35,283 nt of DNA from a virus: IMG/VR virus record IMGVR_UViG_3300033571_018176, positions 1 to 35,283 of that record; one strand, given 5' to 3'. Both the position numbers and the translations under genes were made by a program. The notes below the pieces were generated by a model that saw nothing but the letters and a program-made list of their open reading frames with translations, was not told where the DNA came from and did not search any database. Positions 20,558 to 35,283 of the stretch are shown in pieces (position 1 is the first letter of the stretch; each line of letters begins with the position of its first letter).

Positions 20558-21568
20558 TTATGGAAATTGTGGATTCAACATATACAAAGATTTGAAAGTA
20601 TTATTAACAGATGAAATCAAAGTTTGCCATGTTGCCCCATAATCTGAAGATAAAACCAAATCATATGTTCCACCACCCATGTGTTTATTAGCCATAACAT
20701 ATTGTCCATTATCAGAACATTTCAAATTCAATAACCAATTACTTAAATTATATACTGTAGAAAAAGTAACACCATAATTATTAGACCTAAATAATCTACC
20801 ACTATATGGACTTCCAGATCTTTGTTCACTAACATATATAATACTTCCATCAGCACTACAAATAGCTTCTTTATAACCTATTTGAAAAAGTTTTGTTGTA
20901 AATGTAGCACCATAATCTGATGAAATAAAAACATCATTAGTACCATTAGTTCCCATAACAATATACTGACCATTAGTACTCATATCTACATTTATGAATA
21001 TCGGTGGATATCCATACCATGTCCATGTATATCCATAATCATTAGAATAAGAATAACCAATTCTAGATCCACCATTAGAAATTGTAATCCAATATTGACC
21101 ATTTTCACTACATTTTATAGCGTCTTGAGAACCAATTCCATATACATCCCAAGTTTCACCAGAATTTCTACTAATATAAACACCTAATCCAAAAGAAGCT
21201 CCCAAATATACACCATCAGTTGATAAACAAACATTACTACAATTATTCAAACCAACAGGTGTTTGTAAATACCATTTTCTACCATAATTCTTAGAAAGAT
21301 ATAATTGTGATCCTGAGTCCCCTAATAAAATTTGCCCATTATTACTAACAGCTAAATTTTGAAAAGCATATTCACTATTTTGTAAAGGAATTGTTGGAGT
21401 AGTATAACCTGTTGATATATAAGTGTAATTAGGCCAATATGAAGGTTGATTTATATTGGATGCATATAGAACTCTATTCCAATATCCATCCTTTGGAAAA
21501 ATTTGTATATTTCCTAAGAAAGCATAATCACCAACTTTATTTCCTATATATACTTTTTCATTTTCCAT
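20558..21568 (-). CDS. Asp-box (BNR-type) beta-propeller tail protein
   Basis: 336 aa from the Met at 21568 (MENEKVYIGNKVGDYAFLG), which starts two bases after the upstream stop; an earlier Met at 21610 would overlap that gene by 40 bases. At least six Asp-box repeats S-x-(D/N)-x-G-x-(T/K)-(W/F) are visible: SKNYGRKW, SRNSGETW, SNDYGYTW, SSDYGATF, SNNYGVTF and SSDYGATW, each preceded by a strand with (D/N)GQY or DG. This is a six-bladed sialidase/Vps10-type propeller. No sialidase active-site Arg triad is evident, so receptor or glycan binding is more likely than hydrolysis. It lies in the fibre gene cluster. Confidence 0.75.
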   Translation of the reverse strand: MENEKVYIGNKVGDYAFLGNIQIFPKDGYWNRVLYASNINQPSYWPNYTYISTGYTTPTIPLQNSEYAFQNLAVSNNGQILLGDSGSQLYLSKNYGRKWYLQTPVGLNNCSNVCLSTDGVYLGASFGLGVYISRNSGETWDVYGIGSQDAIKCSENGQYWITISNGGSRIGYSYSNDYGYTWTWYGYPPIFINVDMSTNGQYIVMGTNGTNDVFISSDYGATFTTKLFQIGYKEAICSADGSIIYVSEQRSGSPYSGRLFRSNNYGVTFSTVYNLSNWLLNLKCSDNGQYVMANKHMGGGTYDLVLSSDYGATWQTLISSVNNTFKSLYMLNPQFP

Positions 21569-21570
21569 AA

Positions 21571-21828
21571 TTATGTATTTCCTGTTATCGAATTTATTTT
21601 TATGTTCCAATTTTCTGCCTCTAATATATCTAAAATTTTTTCATAAGAATATTCTTGTGATTTACTTTCTAAAATTTTTATTGATTCTGGCATTTCATCA
21701 TAATATTTTACAAAAGATTTATTATCTAATGATAATCTTAATGTATCTTTACTACTTTCTAATACCTCATCAAAATTGATTTTATCTACTTCAGATATAT
21801 CAAATATTATATATTTTTTAGTATCCAT
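21571..21828 (-). CDS. Small conserved tail-cluster protein
   Basis: 85 aa from MDTKKYIIFDISEVDKINFD, or 91 aa if the Met at 21846 is used. The shorter start is preferred because the longer form overlaps the LamG gene by 29 bases. The pattern KYIIFDxSEVDxINFxEVLESSxDTLRxSxDNKSFVKYYDExP and YSYEKILDILEAENW is one I recall from small proteins in phage tail clusters, with no known function. It may be a fibre chaperone, since it sits between two receptor-binding-like genes. Confidence 0.6.
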   Translation of the reverse strand: MDTKKYIIFDISEVDKINFDEVLESSKDTLRLSLDNKSFVKYYDEMPESIKILESKSQEYSYEKILDILEAENWNIKINSITGNT

Positions 21829-22540
21829 AATTTGTTTTTGTTCCATTATAATTTGCTAAAATTTCAGCATCACTTAAAGCTCTTGTATATAATTGAAATT
21901 CACCAATATTACAAAGAGTTGTATTTGTACTTTGACCTCTTGCTATACTCCAACCATCACTTGAAGTTCTTAAATTCGTTCTTGTTGTATTTGTAGTTTG
22001 TTCTAAAATTCCATTAACATAAATTTTTATAGAAACACCTGGTGACCAAATACCCATGACATAATACCATGTATTATCTACTAAAGTTGTTGTACTAATC
22101 GCATTAGTTTGTGCTAAAGAAGGTGTAGTTGTAACAACACCAGCTGTTAATTTATTTGTAGTATTTTTAGTTACAAATAAACTCCATCCATTTCCAGCAC
22201 CATCCCTACCTCTCATAAAAAATATTTTCTCAGCTGCACTTGTTGTAGCATTAACCCAACCACCCCATGTATATGTACCAGTTGTTGAACCTGTGTATGG
22301 AAAACTAACATAATCATTTGTCCCATCGAAACTGAAATAATATGGTGTTGAACCAGTTGTCCATGTAGGTCCATTTGTTAATGTTCCATTATATGTTGTA
22401 CCAGTTGCAATACTTGTCCATGTTGTACCTGTACCATTATAAGAAGATGGTGAGGTATTTGTATAAATAGTTAATCCACTATAAGTAATTCCAGTTGAAA
22501 TTGGTTGTGTATTTCTAAATCCAAATGGTGAAAAAATCAT
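21818..22540 (-). CDS. LamG/concanavalin-like jelly-roll tail protein
   Basis: 240 aa. Residues about 70-230 show the LamG-like signature: YYFSFDGTNDYVSFPYTGS, YTWGGWVNATTS, NTWYYVMGIWSPGVSIKIYVNGILE and CNIGEFQLYTRALSDAEILANYNG. The last two segments (VxIYVNG and IGxxxxYxRALSDxEI) are hallmarks of the family that binds sugars. Starts with one-base overlap (TAATG) on the stop of the collagen-like fibre gene. It probably forms part of the tail tip or fibre and binds host surface glycans. Confidence 0.8.
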   Translation of the reverse strand: MIFSPFGFRNTQPISTGITYSGLTIYTNTSPSSYNGTGTTWTSIATGTTYNGTLTNGPTWTTGSTPYYFSFDGTNDYVSFPYTGSTTGTYTWGGWVNATTSAAEKIFFMRGRDGAGNGWSLFVTKNTTNKLTAGVVTTTPSLAQTNAISTTTLVDNTWYYVMGIWSPGVSIKIYVNGILEQTTNTTRTNLRTSSDGWSIARGQSTNTTLCNIGEFQLYTRALSDAEILANYNGTKTNYGY

Positions 22541-24552
22541 TATACTAAGTTTTTAACGTTTGCCAAATAAAGTGATGAACTATCAAATGAAACCAAAGTA
22601 ACAACATCTACTGTTGTTCCTGTTGATGGAACATATGATGAACCACTTATTTGTTTAACAGATGATGGGAAACTAACTGTTCCACTACCTGTTGTATTTA
22701 ATAAAATGTTTATAGTTTGACCTGCTTTTATATTTGATGGTTCAATTCTTGTATTACTACCGCTAACCAATTGTAATGTGAAAAAGTTACCATTATTCAA
22801 ATTTAGTGATGCTGTATTAGAACTTATAGATAATGATTGTACATTTCCATTTATGGAACCTGTGATTGATTGATTAGAACCTAAAGAACCTGATGTAATC
22901 AAACCAATATAATCTACTAAACCACTCGTACCTGAACTACCACTTGTACCTGATGTACCACTTGTTCCAACACCACTAGAACCTGAAGTTCCTGATGTAC
23001 CTGAACTAAATCCAGCAGGTGATGTACCTGAACTACCACTTGTACCTGATGTACCACTTGTTCCAACACCACTTGTTCCTGATGTACCTGATGAACCATT
23101 CAATCCTGAACCATTACTTTCACCTGTACCTATTGCAGTTAAATAACCTGTGAATCCTGTATATCCACTTAAAGCATCACTACTTGATATAGATACTGTA
23201 AATCCTGAAGTTGTTTTACCAGATATAATAACAGTATTATTTGAACTTAAATCATACCAATAATAATCTGCATCAGTAGGAGTACCTCCACTAAAAGTAC
23301 CGAATTGATAAACAAAATCTACAGAATAATTAGAATTACTAAAAGGTGTAGTAAATGTAAAAGTTTGTGTGTTTACTGGATTAGTAAAAGGTACAAATCC
23401 ACTCCAACCTGTATTATTTACAGAAATGTTCTTTGCGGGTAATCCAAATCCACTTGTTCCAGATGTACCAGCTGTTCCTGAACTACCACTACTTCCTGAT
23501 GTACCAGATGTTCCTGAACTACCACTACTTCCTGATGTACCAGAAGTACCAGAAGTACCAGCTGTTCCTGAACTACCACTACTTCCTGATGTACCAGAAG
23601 TACCAGATGTTCCTGATGTACCAGAAGTACCACTAGTTCCTGATGTGTTCATACTTCCACTTACAAGATATAAAGTATTAGAATCGAGAGCACCAGATAT
23701 AAATAAATTATTATATTCGGAATTTGTTAATGTTGTAACTGTATTTACTTTTGGTAAAGATTGTGTATCAGTTACATTTGTAATTACACTACCCGTATTT
23801 ACATCATCATAAACATAAATGGTTCCTGTTATAAATGCAGAAGAAGAAACTCTCAAAGAACCACTGATGCTTTGATTTCCATTTATTTGTAATGAACCAG
23901 TAATTGCTTGATTACCATTTATATTCGAAGGACCTGTTATAGATTGATTACCAACAACTATGTGTGAGCCTGTTATAGATTGATTTCCATTTATGTTAGA
24001 ATCACCAATTAAAGAAAATGAATTAGATAATAATAAAGAACCTGTTATATTTGCACCATTACTTATCCTTAATGAACCTGTGATTGATTCATTACCATTA
24101 ACATTCAAATTATTATTAACATTTATTGATGTACCTGTAACAAATAAATTTGATGATGCCGTAACTGCTGTACCAGTTGAATTGGTAAAAATGAATCTAC
24201 CTTCAGCAGCATTACTTATTGTTCCAAATCCACTAGTACCAGATGTACCAGATGTACCAGATGTACCAGATGAACCACTACTACCAGAAGTTCCACTTGT
24301 ACCATGAGAACCTCTAGTTCCTGATGTACCACTTGTACCAGAAGAACCTGCAATACCACTAGTACCACTCGTACCTGATGTTCCATTTGCTCCATTAAAA
24401 CCAGATGTACCTGAAGTACCTGATGAACCGTTATTAAAATCTTCAAGAATAACTCTTGCTGTCTGTGTTAAAGCAGGATTATCAATAACAAACCATGTTC
24501 CTGCTATGGAACCTGTATATACTGGTAATTCTGAAACTTTTACGTTACTCAT
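22540..24552 (-). CDS. Collagen-like tail fibre protein 1
   Basis: 670 aa. A short head (1-41, VKVSELPVYTGSIAGTWFVIDN) probably attaches to the tail. Three collagen-like GTSG/GSSG tracts follow: residues 42-110, about 303-368 and about 480-545. Between the first two are repeats built on xINGNQSITGSL (about 150-240), like beta-helix rungs. The C-terminus (about 560-670) is beta-rich (IGLITSGSLGSNQSITGSING, VVTLVSFDSSSLYLANVKN). Gly at every third position with Thr/Ser and almost no proline is an unusual collagen type. It should form trimeric stalks. Tracts share nucleotide-level repeats with fibre 2, so recombination between them is likely. Confidence 0.75.
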   Translation of the reverse strand: MSNVKVSELPVYTGSIAGTWFVIDNPALTQTARVILEDFNNGSSGTSGTSGFNGANGTSGTSGTSGIAGSSGTSGTSGTRGSHGTSGTSGSSGSSGTSGTSGTSGTSGFGTISNAAEGRFIFTNSTGTAVTASSNLFVTGTSINVNNNLNVNGNESITGSLRISNGANITGSLLLSNSFSLIGDSNINGNQSITGSHIVVGNQSITGPSNINGNQAITGSLQINGNQSISGSLRVSSSAFITGTIYVYDDVNTGSVITNVTDTQSLPKVNTVTTLTNSEYNNLFISGALDSNTLYLVSGSMNTSGTSGTSGTSGTSGTSGTSGSSGSSGTAGTSGTSGTSGSSGSSGTSGTSGSSGSSGTAGTSGTSGFGLPAKNISVNNTGWSGFVPFTNPVNTQTFTFTTPFSNSNYSVDFVYQFGTFSGGTPTDADYYWYDLSSNNTVIISGKTTSGFTVSISSSDALSGYTGFTGYLTAIGTGESNGSGLNGSSGTSGTSGVGTSGTSGTSGSSGTSPAGFSSGTSGTSGSSGVGTSGTSGTSGSSGTSGLVDYIGLITSGSLGSNQSITGSINGNVQSLSISSNTASLNLNNGNFFTLQLVSGSNTRIEPSNIKAGQTINILLNTTGSGTVSFPSSVKQISGSSYVPSTGTTVDVVTLVSFDSSSLYLANVKNLV
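22918..23110 (-). repeat. GTSG collagen-like repeat tract C (fibre 1)
   Basis: Imperfect 9-bp units, read on the minus strand as GGT ACA AGT or GGT AGT TCA variants, encoding (G-T-S / G-S-S)n with breaks at GVG and PAGFS. Confidence 0.85.
23447..23645 (-). repeat. GTSG collagen-like repeat tract B (fibre 1)
   Basis: About 22 triplets of G-T-S, G-S-S and G-T-A with a higher-order period of roughly 45-50 bases (a GSSGSSGTAGTSGTSG-like block repeated). The complement reads as VPDVPELPLLPD, which is a shadow. Confidence 0.85.
24223..24429 (-). repeat. GTSG collagen-like repeat tract A (fibre 1)
   Basis: Encodes residues 42-110 of fibre 1, G-T-S and G-S-S triplets broken by FNGAN, IAG, TRGSH. 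Confidence 0.85.
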
Positions 24553-33057: not shown

Positions 33058-34071
33058 TTAAACTTTATCCCAATCTCTATTAACTTGTCTCCATAATTCA
33101 GCCAATTCATCCCATGTATAACCTGGTACAAAATTAGTAACAGGTAACACACATCTATTATAATCAAATTTTTGTTGAATAGATACTTGAAAACTCCAAC
33201 CACAAAGTGTAGTTTCTGTATCCTCTAACCATGGTTCAAGTGTTGCATTCCATTCAACATCATAATCAGATAAATATGCCTTAGAAAAAAAGTCCTTACA
33301 TATTTCTAAACAATCTGATAATATATCTTGTTGATTTGAATAGTCATCTTCCAATTTATCTACTACAATAACTGTCCAAGTGATATGCATATGGTTTTCT
33401 TCCAATCTTGTTGTATCAGGAATGAAATACATTCTCGGATACAAAGGTTCTTGTTTTGTAATAATATCGTTTGTTAATAACGAACCATCACCAAAACCCC
33501 AACTATTAACTTGTTCGTGAGCGTCAGCAAATTGTTTCCAATCTAATAATACTTGTTTATAAGCTGAATATGTTTGGTCTTGAGGAAATCCAAAATCATC
33601 TACAATAGGTAATCCACAACTATCATAATCAAATGGTACTGACAATCTGATATGAAGTGTATGACCTCCTAATGTACTTTCAAATCTTTCTGTGAATGGA
33701 TGTACTTTTGGTCCCCATTCACCAACAATAATATTAGAAAAATCACCTTGATGTGACGTATATGACTGCCAAAAGATAGTCCATATGTCCATACAAATCT
33801 CCAAAGTATCAGACATGACATCTTGTAAATTTGACAAATCATCTTCTACTTTATCGACAATCACGATTGCAAAATCATAATGCATGTGATTTTCGTTAAA
33901 AATCACAGATTCAGGAACCACATACATTCTTGTGTATTTTGGTTCTTGTTTGGTCTGAATATCCATCGTAATCTGATTCATATCACCAAATCCAAAACTT
34001 TCAATTTGTTCGTGATGATATGCGATTGAACTAAAATAAGTCAGAATTTGTTTATATGTAATTTTACTCAT
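33058..34071 (-). CDS. Tandemly duplicated two-domain tail protein
   Basis: 337 aa made of two copies of one domain, about residues 6-156 and 171-311. Matching pairs include HEQIESFGFGD with HEQVNSWGFGD, TKQEPKYTRMYVVP with TKQEPLYPRMYFIP, ENHMH with ENHMH, IVDKVEDDLSNLQDVMSDTLEIC with VVDKLEDDYSNQQDILSDCLEIC, and FDYDSCGLPI with FDYNRCVLPV. The offset is a constant 165 residues across the first half and about 155 near the end. The domain resembles single-copy tail terminator/neck-type proteins of Bacteroidota phages, which I know by pattern. A fused duplication might act as a ring of alternating domains. It lies between the chaperone-like gene and fibre 2. Confidence 0.65.
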   Translation of the reverse strand: MSKITYKQILTYFSSIAYHHEQIESFGFGDMNQITMDIQTKQEPKYTRMYVVPESVIFNENHMHYDFAIVIVDKVEDDLSNLQDVMSDTLEICMDIWTIFWQSYTSHQGDFSNIIVGEWGPKVHPFTERFESTLGGHTLHIRLSVPFDYDSCGLPIVDDFGFPQDQTYSAYKQVLLDWKQFADAHEQVNSWGFGDGSLLTNDIITKQEPLYPRMYFIPDTTRLEENHMHITWTVIVVDKLEDDYSNQQDILSDCLEICKDFFSKAYLSDYDVEWNATLEPWLEDTETTLCGWSFQVSIQQKFDYNRCVLPVTNFVPGYTWDELAELWRQVNRDWDKV

Positions 34072-34111: not shown

Positions 34112-34405
34112 TTAGTTCTGACTCATCGCTTTTTTCTGTAATCTGATTTGTTCTTTATCGTAATCTATTAAGAATGATAATTGGTTTAATACTTCAATTA
34201 ATTTTTTCTTGTAGACGTAGTCGTGTTTTGTAATATCGTTTGAAGTGATTCTATTGACGACAAGGAACCACCCGTAGGTTTTTTGAAAGCTGTTTTCCAA
34301 ATCATCTTGCGCAGCCGCCAAAGCAGCTTGATTCTCGTCCATATTGAGATAGTCGGGGTCGAAGACACCTGGGAATAAAGAAAATATCTCCTTGCGAAGT
34401 TGATA
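34112..34405 (-). CDS. -1 frame extension of chaperone-like protein
   Basis: 97 codons in the -1 frame, entered after a run of nine T (34405-34413 on the minus strand). It reads YQLRKEIFSLFPGVFDPDYL, then NMDENQAALAAAQDDLENS, FQKTYGWFLVVNRITSNDIT, YVYKKKLIEVLNQLSFLIDY and KEQIRLQKKAMSQN. The part from the Met at 34342 could start on its own, but the coding-like sequence extends in front of that Met back to the T run, which argues for fusion to the upstream frame. The fused product would be 272 aa. The YGWFxVxNRxxxxDxxKxDxVYxxxxxEVLNxLSFxxD pattern looks like the C-terminus of phage tail assembly chaperones. Confidence 0.65.
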   Translation of the reverse strand, partial: YQLRKEIFSLFPGVFDPDYLNMDENQAALAAAQDDLENSFQKTYGWFLVVNRITSNDITKHDYVYKKKLIEVLNQLSFLIDYDKEQIRLQKKAMSQN

Positions 34406-34929
34406 AAAAAAAACTGTGCTCCAAGAAGATATTTGACATCAAGTTTCTTTTTGAATATTTCCGCTCGTTCTTTCATTTTATTGACATCATATTCTTCAAT
34501 TATAAAATTGTGTTCTGTAATTTCATGTTCAATAGGTCGGTACATAATTGCTGCTAATATGTGTAATAAGTCCAACATTTCATTTTGTGGTTTAGTAGAT
34601 ATTGTATCCATATCCACAAATTCAGCAAATGTTAAATCTCTCCAATTAGGAAAAAAACCATAATGTACTCCATCAATCTCAAATCTATCATGAAACTTTG
34701 GTTTTTCATCTAATGGTATCAGTGACATTAGATATACTGCAAGAAAATTTATTTCCTCATAATCTTGTTTAAGTAATAATTCTAAAGGAATATCACCAAC
34801 AATACTAATTAATTTTGCTGCAAAATATTGGTCTGTGAATAAATCTTTAACCTTATAAATTTTTACATAATTTTCAATACTCAAATATGAGGGTAACTCA
34901 TATTCGGTTTTATCAATTTTTACTTCCAT
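34198..34929 (-). CDS. Tail assembly chaperone-like protein, zero-frame form
   Basis: 243 aa. Residues 1-172 look like a globular helical domain (FEIDGVHYGFFPNWRDLTFAEFVDMDTISTKP, LDLLHILAAIMYRPIEHEI, KERAEIFKKKLDVKYLLGAQ). After GAQFFF the zero frame continues for 68 codons (INFARRYFLYSQVSSTPTIS ... SSIESLQTILQNTTTSTRKN), which also looks plausible as protein. The same DNA in the -1 frame gives a second plausible C-terminus. Tail chaperones are often made in two forms by -1 frameshifting, which supports this identification, but the gene lies next to terL and not next to the tape measure gene. Confidence 0.65.
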   Translation of the reverse strand: MEVKIDKTEYELPSYLSIENYVKIYKVKDLFTDQYFAAKLISIVGDIPLELLLKQDYEEINFLAVYLMSLIPLDEKPKFHDRFEIDGVHYGFFPNWRDLTFAEFVDMDTISTKPQNEMLDLLHILAAIMYRPIEHEITEHNFIIEEYDVNKMKERAEIFKKKLDVKYLLGAQFFFINFARRYFLYSQVSSTPTISIWTRIKLLWRLRKMIWKTAFKKPTGGSLSSIESLQTILQNTTTSTRKN

Positions 34930-34930
34930 A

Positions 34931-35283
34931 TTATACGAATGCTATAGCATAACGACCAGTAGATTTTATATTCTTCAATTCAAAATACATTCTCATCATA
35001 AGACAATCCGCATAGTCAGGTGAAACACCCAATATCTTTTTCATCTCCTCTTTTGATTGAACAGCTACTTTATTATCCTTATCTATATTTTTTAATTTTA
35101 TTGCTAATAATTCCTGTGTAATTGTGTCCATTAAACTTGGGTCAATAATATTCAAACTAATTTTCTTTTCTTTAAACATCTCACTTAACTTAACATAACA
35201 CTGACTTTTCAAATTAGAAAAGTTTTGATTGAATAAAGGTGATGAGTTATTTACAAAATTCACACCTCTGACTTGATCCGCCA
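34931..35283 (-). CDS. terL: Terminase large subunit, C-terminal part (enters from the window end)
   Basis: 117 codons plus two bases, open to the window end. It reads ADQVRGVNFVNNSSPLF, then KLSEMFKEKKISLNIIDPSLMD, VAVQSKEEMKKILGVSPDYADCLMMRMYF and ends at RYAIAFV. The SKEEMKKxLGxSPDYADxLxM segment is the conserved C-terminal end of TerL nuclease domains and contains the third metal-binding Asp. Joined to the fragment at 1-961 it stays in frame and gives 437 residues, a normal TerL size. At the join the usual DGVGGGV motif is reduced to DSD-VADQ, so a few codons may be missing. A Met at 35263 is internal, not a real start. Confidence 0.9.
   Translation of the reverse strand, partial: ADQVRGVNFVNNSSPLFNQNFSNLKSQCYVKLSEMFKEKKISLNIIDPSLMDTITQELLAIKLKNIDKDNKVAVQSKEEMKKILGVSPDYADCLMMRMYFELKNIKSTGRYAIAFV

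Follow-up and report, generated by a model that had tools for sequence, protein, structure and literature searches.

In bacteriophage lambda, the tape measure is the assembly site of gpG and of gpGT, the scarcer of the two (30:1), and the T part recruits the tail protein (PMC5009743). DNA viruses seldom show long dual coding on one strand, their gene overlaps having a median length of about 16 nt (PMC8903798). The locus described here provides a statistically firm case of it.

The stretch of DNA analysed here (the window) comprises 35,283 nucleotides of the IMG/VR record IMGVR_UViG_3300033571_018176 and carries a two-frame gene next to the large terminase gene TerL. We consider that a programmed −1 frameshift with dual-coded ends, both of them under selection and forming a pair that is most likely G/GT-like, explains the whole of the evidence with a probability of roughly 0.78. 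According to this explanation, programmed −1 ribosomal frameshifting at T TTT TTT would yield two proteins with residues 1–175 in common: non-slipping ribosomes would produce a 243-aa form with a 68-residue tail, which in the window's clade includes a basic Trp helix, and slipping ribosomes would produce a 272-aa form with a mainly helical T-like end. The features of the locus are collected in Table 1.

Table 1. Coordinates of the frameshift gene, its parts and the neighbouring genes in the window.
Feature	Position	Strand	Remarks
TerL C-terminal part, directly upstream of the frameshift gene	34931..35283	-	in frame across the contig ends
TerL N-terminal part, other contig end	2..961	-	Pfam Terminase_6N, E 1.8e-10
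Zero-frame ORF, 243 aa ("G-like" form)	34198..34929	-	residues 1-175 common to both products
T9 run	34405..34413	-	covers zero-frame codons 173-175
Slip heptamer T TTT TTT	34411-34405	-	last two codons are zero-frame codons 174-175
-1 frame past the slip, 97 codons and TAA ("T-like" domain)	34112..34405	-	272-aa fusion
Dual-coded overlap, 207 bases: 68 zero-frame codons and stop over the -1 frame	34198..34404	-	both frames under purifying selection, judging from relatives
Zero-frame basic helix, aa 196-215, with Trp197/Trp204/Trp211 seven apart	34285..34344	-	AlphaFold2, W204 column
T-like core, aa 40-97 of the -1 part, motif FQKxYGW...ND..KH...E.LNQL	34115..34288	-	
Next downstream gene, two tandem copies of a P12024S gp41-like domain; possibly tail terminator	33058..34071	-	by eye
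Likely tape-measure protein, 1065 aa	16270..19467	-	sequence features by eye; without family match

The zero frame runs from 34929 to 34198 (243 codons and a stop), and its last 216 bases consist of the T9 run, 68 codons and the stop. The −1 frame is entered at the last T (34405) and closes with TAA at 34114–34112, so that the fusion comprises 175 + 97 = 272 aa. An earlier note on this DNA had given T9 at 34405–34413, 68 zero-frame and 97 −1 codons, and products of 243 and 272 aa, all of which proved exact on recount. Its hand-counted G+C contents of ~48% at 34297–34399 and ~28% at 34501–34560 were recomputed as 47.6% and 28.3%; the entire overlap has 38.9% G+C versus 27.7% for the remainder of the frameshift gene. 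The raised value had been read as what two-frame constraint would lead one to expect, which is in line with a codon usage that is poor for either frame inside the overlap but normal elsewhere.

A first protein scan of viral contigs recovered 75 loci with 48–74% identity, most of them along the whole 243 aa (alignment A1), and two further alignment-based scans recovered 279 and 573 related places. The frameshift gene is present, unannotated, in hundreds of environmental contigs, and the phage family that carries it is large and mostly uncultured. Among 120 sequences from the first three scans, the window included, the run was T9 in 103 and T7 in 16, and the remaining one was counted as T8 and is situated in a T10 run; all 120 carry T TTT TTT in frame, with an unchanged relation between the two reading frames. 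Within the window's clade (133 distinct sequences), T9 was found in 114 and T7 in 18. The zero-frame overlap of this clade measures 62–89 codons, is exactly 68 codons long in 81 of the 133 sequences and is never shorter than 62, and the −1 part of the relatives mostly has 95–100 codons. One locus (L055), which had seemed to possess a single long frame, resembles L053 as far as a point within the overlap and there switches to other, apparently downstream, sequence; it represents a deletion or a chimera and was left out.

The contig is cut inside TerL, and the relatives have an intact TerL (about 443–459 aa) at the same place, directly before the frameshift gene. The two TerL halves, when joined in frame, lack about 5 residues (GVGGG) compared with the relatives, and only some 15 bases are therefore probably missing from the genome, which would be circular or permuted. 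TerL is followed by the frameshift gene, the possible tail-terminator gene and then the tail-fibre genes. The possible tail-terminator gene (33058–34071) gave only weak matches, to unnamed families; it is an internal tandem duplication, and gp41 of phage P12024S seems to be single-copy. Elsewhere in the window, a family 2 glycosyltransferase is encoded at 964–1533, directly upstream of TerL (Pfam E 2e-14), and a cluster at 20558–24552 encodes collagen-repeat, laminin-G-like and BNR/Asp-box proteins with a likely role in receptor binding or decoration.

The earlier note had also called the gene tail chaperone-like. The layout, the slip site and weak fold matches agree with this name, whereas family and structure searches and the position of the gene do not. 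Pfam and PHROGs returned no chaperone family for alignments A1 and A2 or for the window protein, the only match being phrog_32199, which has no assigned function, and the PDB yielded neither a sequence match to the same queries nor a fold match. In a fold comparison against the viral structure predictions of BFVD, none of the 35 matches with E no higher than 0.001, gp38 of Nonlabens phage P12024S being one of them, bears a functional name; named chaperones appeared only at E 0.16–0.9, among them a tail assembly chaperone (E 0.16) and a tape measure chaperone (E 0.42). A tblastn search of the window protein against cultured phages found no match, and a T-domain scan of bacterial genomes found no confirmed relative and therefore no prophage context. 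The gene follows TerL and does not lie directly upstream of the tape-measure gene and after a major tail gene.

A different head or tail assembly factor beside TerL, produced by the same real frameshift, is the strongest of the alternatives: the gene adjoins TerL about 15 kb away from the likely tape-measure gene, and neither a chaperone family nor a solved structure matched it. We nevertheless regard this alternative as unlikely, given that nothing else next to the likely tape-measure gene was recognised as a candidate and that the size, the G/T layout, the −1 slip and the weak fold matches all fit chaperones. The preferred G/GT-like function is inferred from the layout, since no family library calls the gene a tail chaperone. 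In a lambda-type pair, G is expected to bind the tape-measure protein and T the major tail protein, with neither present in the virion. In a G/GT-like division of labour, the part common to both forms would collect on the tape-measure protein, and the rarer fusion would recruit the major tail protein through its T-like end. The zero-frame tail would then be an extra module that lambda gpG lacks, and may serve as a second helix for partner binding or oligomerisation.

The heptamer itself is of the X XXY YYZ type in phase with the zero frame, as expected of a −1 programmed frameshift site, and T TTT TT(T/C/G) occurs in identical phase wherever a relative's site could be read. In the window's clade, T TTT TTT ends on a zero-frame codon boundary in all readable relatives except one, which has T TTT TTC. 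At the sequence level, two ORFs with a common N-terminus appear to be joined by a frameshift, with the heptamer and both frames conserved. The T count, for which the earlier note had wanted confirmation, is upheld by the relatives, whose T runs all have the length needed for −1 slippage; a read error (a true T10) is ruled out by their T9 and T7 runs, with the heptamer in the same phase. No downstream RNA stimulator emerged from RNAalifold on 34 sequences, which returned no common pair, and single-sequence folds disagreed with one another. Not all known −1 frameshift sites have a stimulator structure.

An origin of the two forms in RNA-polymerase slippage on T9, and not in ribosomal frameshifting, appears distinctly improbable. 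T9, the commonest run in the clade, is long enough for transcriptional slippage, but the run is T7 in 18 of the 133 sequences and distant relatives have only six T followed by C or G. Moreover, the coincidence of the run end with a zero-frame codon boundary in all but one relative is needed for tandem slippage in the P and A sites and not for transcriptional slippage. Tandem slippage of Phe-tRNA on T TTT TT(T/C) would account for this boundary and also for the sufficiency of T7 or of T6 followed by C or G, for which polymerase slippage would not.

Production of the T-like domain alone from an internal −1 start, in place of a fusion, is very improbable. It would be suggested by gp39 of P12024S, annotated as a separate 55-aa ORF with an ATG that overlaps the gp38 stop, and by one −1 column that reads ATG, GTG or TTG in 127 of the 133 sequences of the window's clade. 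The same column, however, reads CTG in three other sequences, and a zero-frame Trp (130/133) accounts for it; the pattern recurs in two more columns at a spacing of seven. Conservation of the −1 frame also begins at the slip site, well ahead of the candidate start codons, which bears out the observation made from the window alone that this frame is coding-like from the T run onward, before any ATG.

Selection on the two frames was assessed in 33 phylogenetically independent sister pairs of the window's clade with a Fisher test. Synonymous change in the −1 frame was 0.108 in the overlap versus 0.267 past it (p 3e-22), and in the zero frame 0.107 in the overlap versus 0.231 upstream (p 3e-30), so that it was lowered 2–2.5-fold in the overlap in both frames; the result was repeated in 54 more distant pairs. 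Pairs with 80–97% identity differed at 33% of −1 third positions beyond the zero-frame stop, at 4.5–12% in three successive parts of the overlap, at 24% of zero-frame third positions upstream and at 7–15% of them in the overlap. A comparison of synonymous rates among relatives, proposed earlier as a check, therefore came out with both frames, not one, conserved across the overlap.

The zero frame was also compared with what the −1 frame alone would impose. Its observed amino acid identity in the overlap was 0.845 across the 33 pairs, as against 0.66 in simulations in which only the −1 protein was fixed and 0.691 when stops were forbidden. With the −1 peptide of the window fixed and the phage's own codon usage applied, a zero frame open for 68 codons appeared in 0.025% of draws, and the chance of an open zero frame was 0–3.7% per sequence in 18 sequences of the window's clade. 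Individual columns point the same way in both directions: zero-frame Trp204 is Trp in 130 of the 133 sequences over a −1 residue that is M, V or L (ATG, GTG, TTG, CTG), three other zero-frame columns (S, K, L) are kept at 92–93% despite a varying −1 residue, and, conversely, a −1 Phe and a −1 Gly stand at 100% while the zero frame varies. Judging from the relatives' slip site, the synonymous change, the zero-frame identity and Trp204, the region 34198–34404 is coding twice, with both frames under purifying selection. A functional −1 frame alone, over a zero frame open by accident and conserved as a mere shadow of the −1 constraint, is extremely improbable and for the window's clade already disfavoured statistically, since, although the more conserved domain lies in the −1 frame and the short zero-frame overlaps (16–41 codons) of the P12024S-like loci L161/L163 and of L296/L298 fit chance, the −1 third position is itself held (0.05–0.12 versus 0.33 past the overlap), the zero-frame identity lies 15 points above simulation, and Trp204 is retained while the −1 residue drifts.

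AlphaFold2 modelled the common part (residues 1–175) with good confidence. The tail of the zero frame, with a net charge of +11 in the window, includes a helix (residues 196–215) of middling confidence, with many Lys and Arg residues and a Trp every seven residues, and its last 28 residues are of low confidence. The −1 part was modelled as helical, with a core block at pLDDT 82–90, and its T-like core matched the T-like part of the P12024S-side clade in a profile comparison (prob 94%, E 1e-7). We lean towards a reading in which the choice of frame would swap two complete, separately selected C-terminal modules overwritten in the same DNA: the unshifted protein would carry a basic Trp-heptad helix, its shifted counterpart a helical T-like domain. 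In this reading, a long overlap has persisted across phages with shared domains that are only ~30% identical, and the charge of the overprinted module has changed between clades from about +11 to −4. This suggests that an unshifted chaperone-like protein can carry a second domain of its own.

The second branch of the family was reached through Nonlabens phage P12024S (JQ823122.1, locus L154, 23136–23830), in which gp38 and gp39 are annotated as separate hypothetical proteins. Gp38 directly follows TerL and has T TTT TTT, and the −1 frame runs through the end of gp38 into gp39; the two look like one −1 frameshifted gene. A scan with gp38 recovered 63 loci with identity down to 25%, and those that were read keep the heptamer and the T-like domain. 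The zero-frame overlap on this side mostly spans 55–84 codons, with only 16–25 in the P12024S-like loci. Among the loci L190–L222 of this side it reaches up to 84 of the 92 −1 codons, and nearly all of the T-like domain is double-coded there. Testing the −1 frame of the P12024S-side clade for selection gave p 0.20, but with little power, as few codons lie past the overlap. Zero-frame tails of the two branches gave a marginal profile match only (prob 7%), and their charges differ; because the P12024S-side tail is acidic, its function may differ from that in the window's clade. As long overlaps occur on both main branches, the short form has probably been derived from an older long one. At three further remote loci the heptamer is T TTT TTG and the overlap spans 38–41 codons, a length within reach of chance at the two examined (L296/L298), and a match in Flavobacterium phage 6H (R9VW65) showed no obvious −1 continuation. 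The family offers a natural series of overlap lengths, from 16 to 93 codons, for studying the gain and loss of a frame over a conserved domain, and its relatives in cultured Nonlabens phages make it testable at the bench.

Alternative C-termini from overlapping frames are also known from the P/V/W genes of paramyxoviruses. Their products share a common N-terminal part (PMC8204654) but arise by transcriptional slippage in RNA viruses, and no homology is claimed. Lambda gpG/gpGT resembles the present pair in a −1 frameshift past a common N-terminal part, which yields a less abundant, longer product bearing a T domain, and in its place in a structural gene cluster. In lambda, however, the slip site is G GGA AAG, 5 zero-frame codons are left and the gene lies directly before the tape-measure gene H, whereas the window gene has T TTT TTT, 68 codons left, a position beside TerL and a zero-frame tail that is under selection; the overlap is about ten times as long as that of lambda. 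P2 E/E+E' likewise makes a −1 fusion, at a heptamer of the kind seen here (T TTT TTG), with only 6 zero-frame codons past the slip before the tape-measure gene T. Phage D29 showed no heptamer by a simple pattern and was left out as a yardstick. A further likeness is found in gp38 + gp39 of the Nonlabens phages P12024S and P12024L (Inhavirus), with a fold match at E 6e-10, the place behind TerL, T TTT TTT and a T-like −1 part, but there only 25 zero-frame codons remain past the slip. In the literature covered, which mostly excluded subscription papers, we found no report of a long selected overlap in such genes. The long dual-coded overlap is well supported in the sequences compared.
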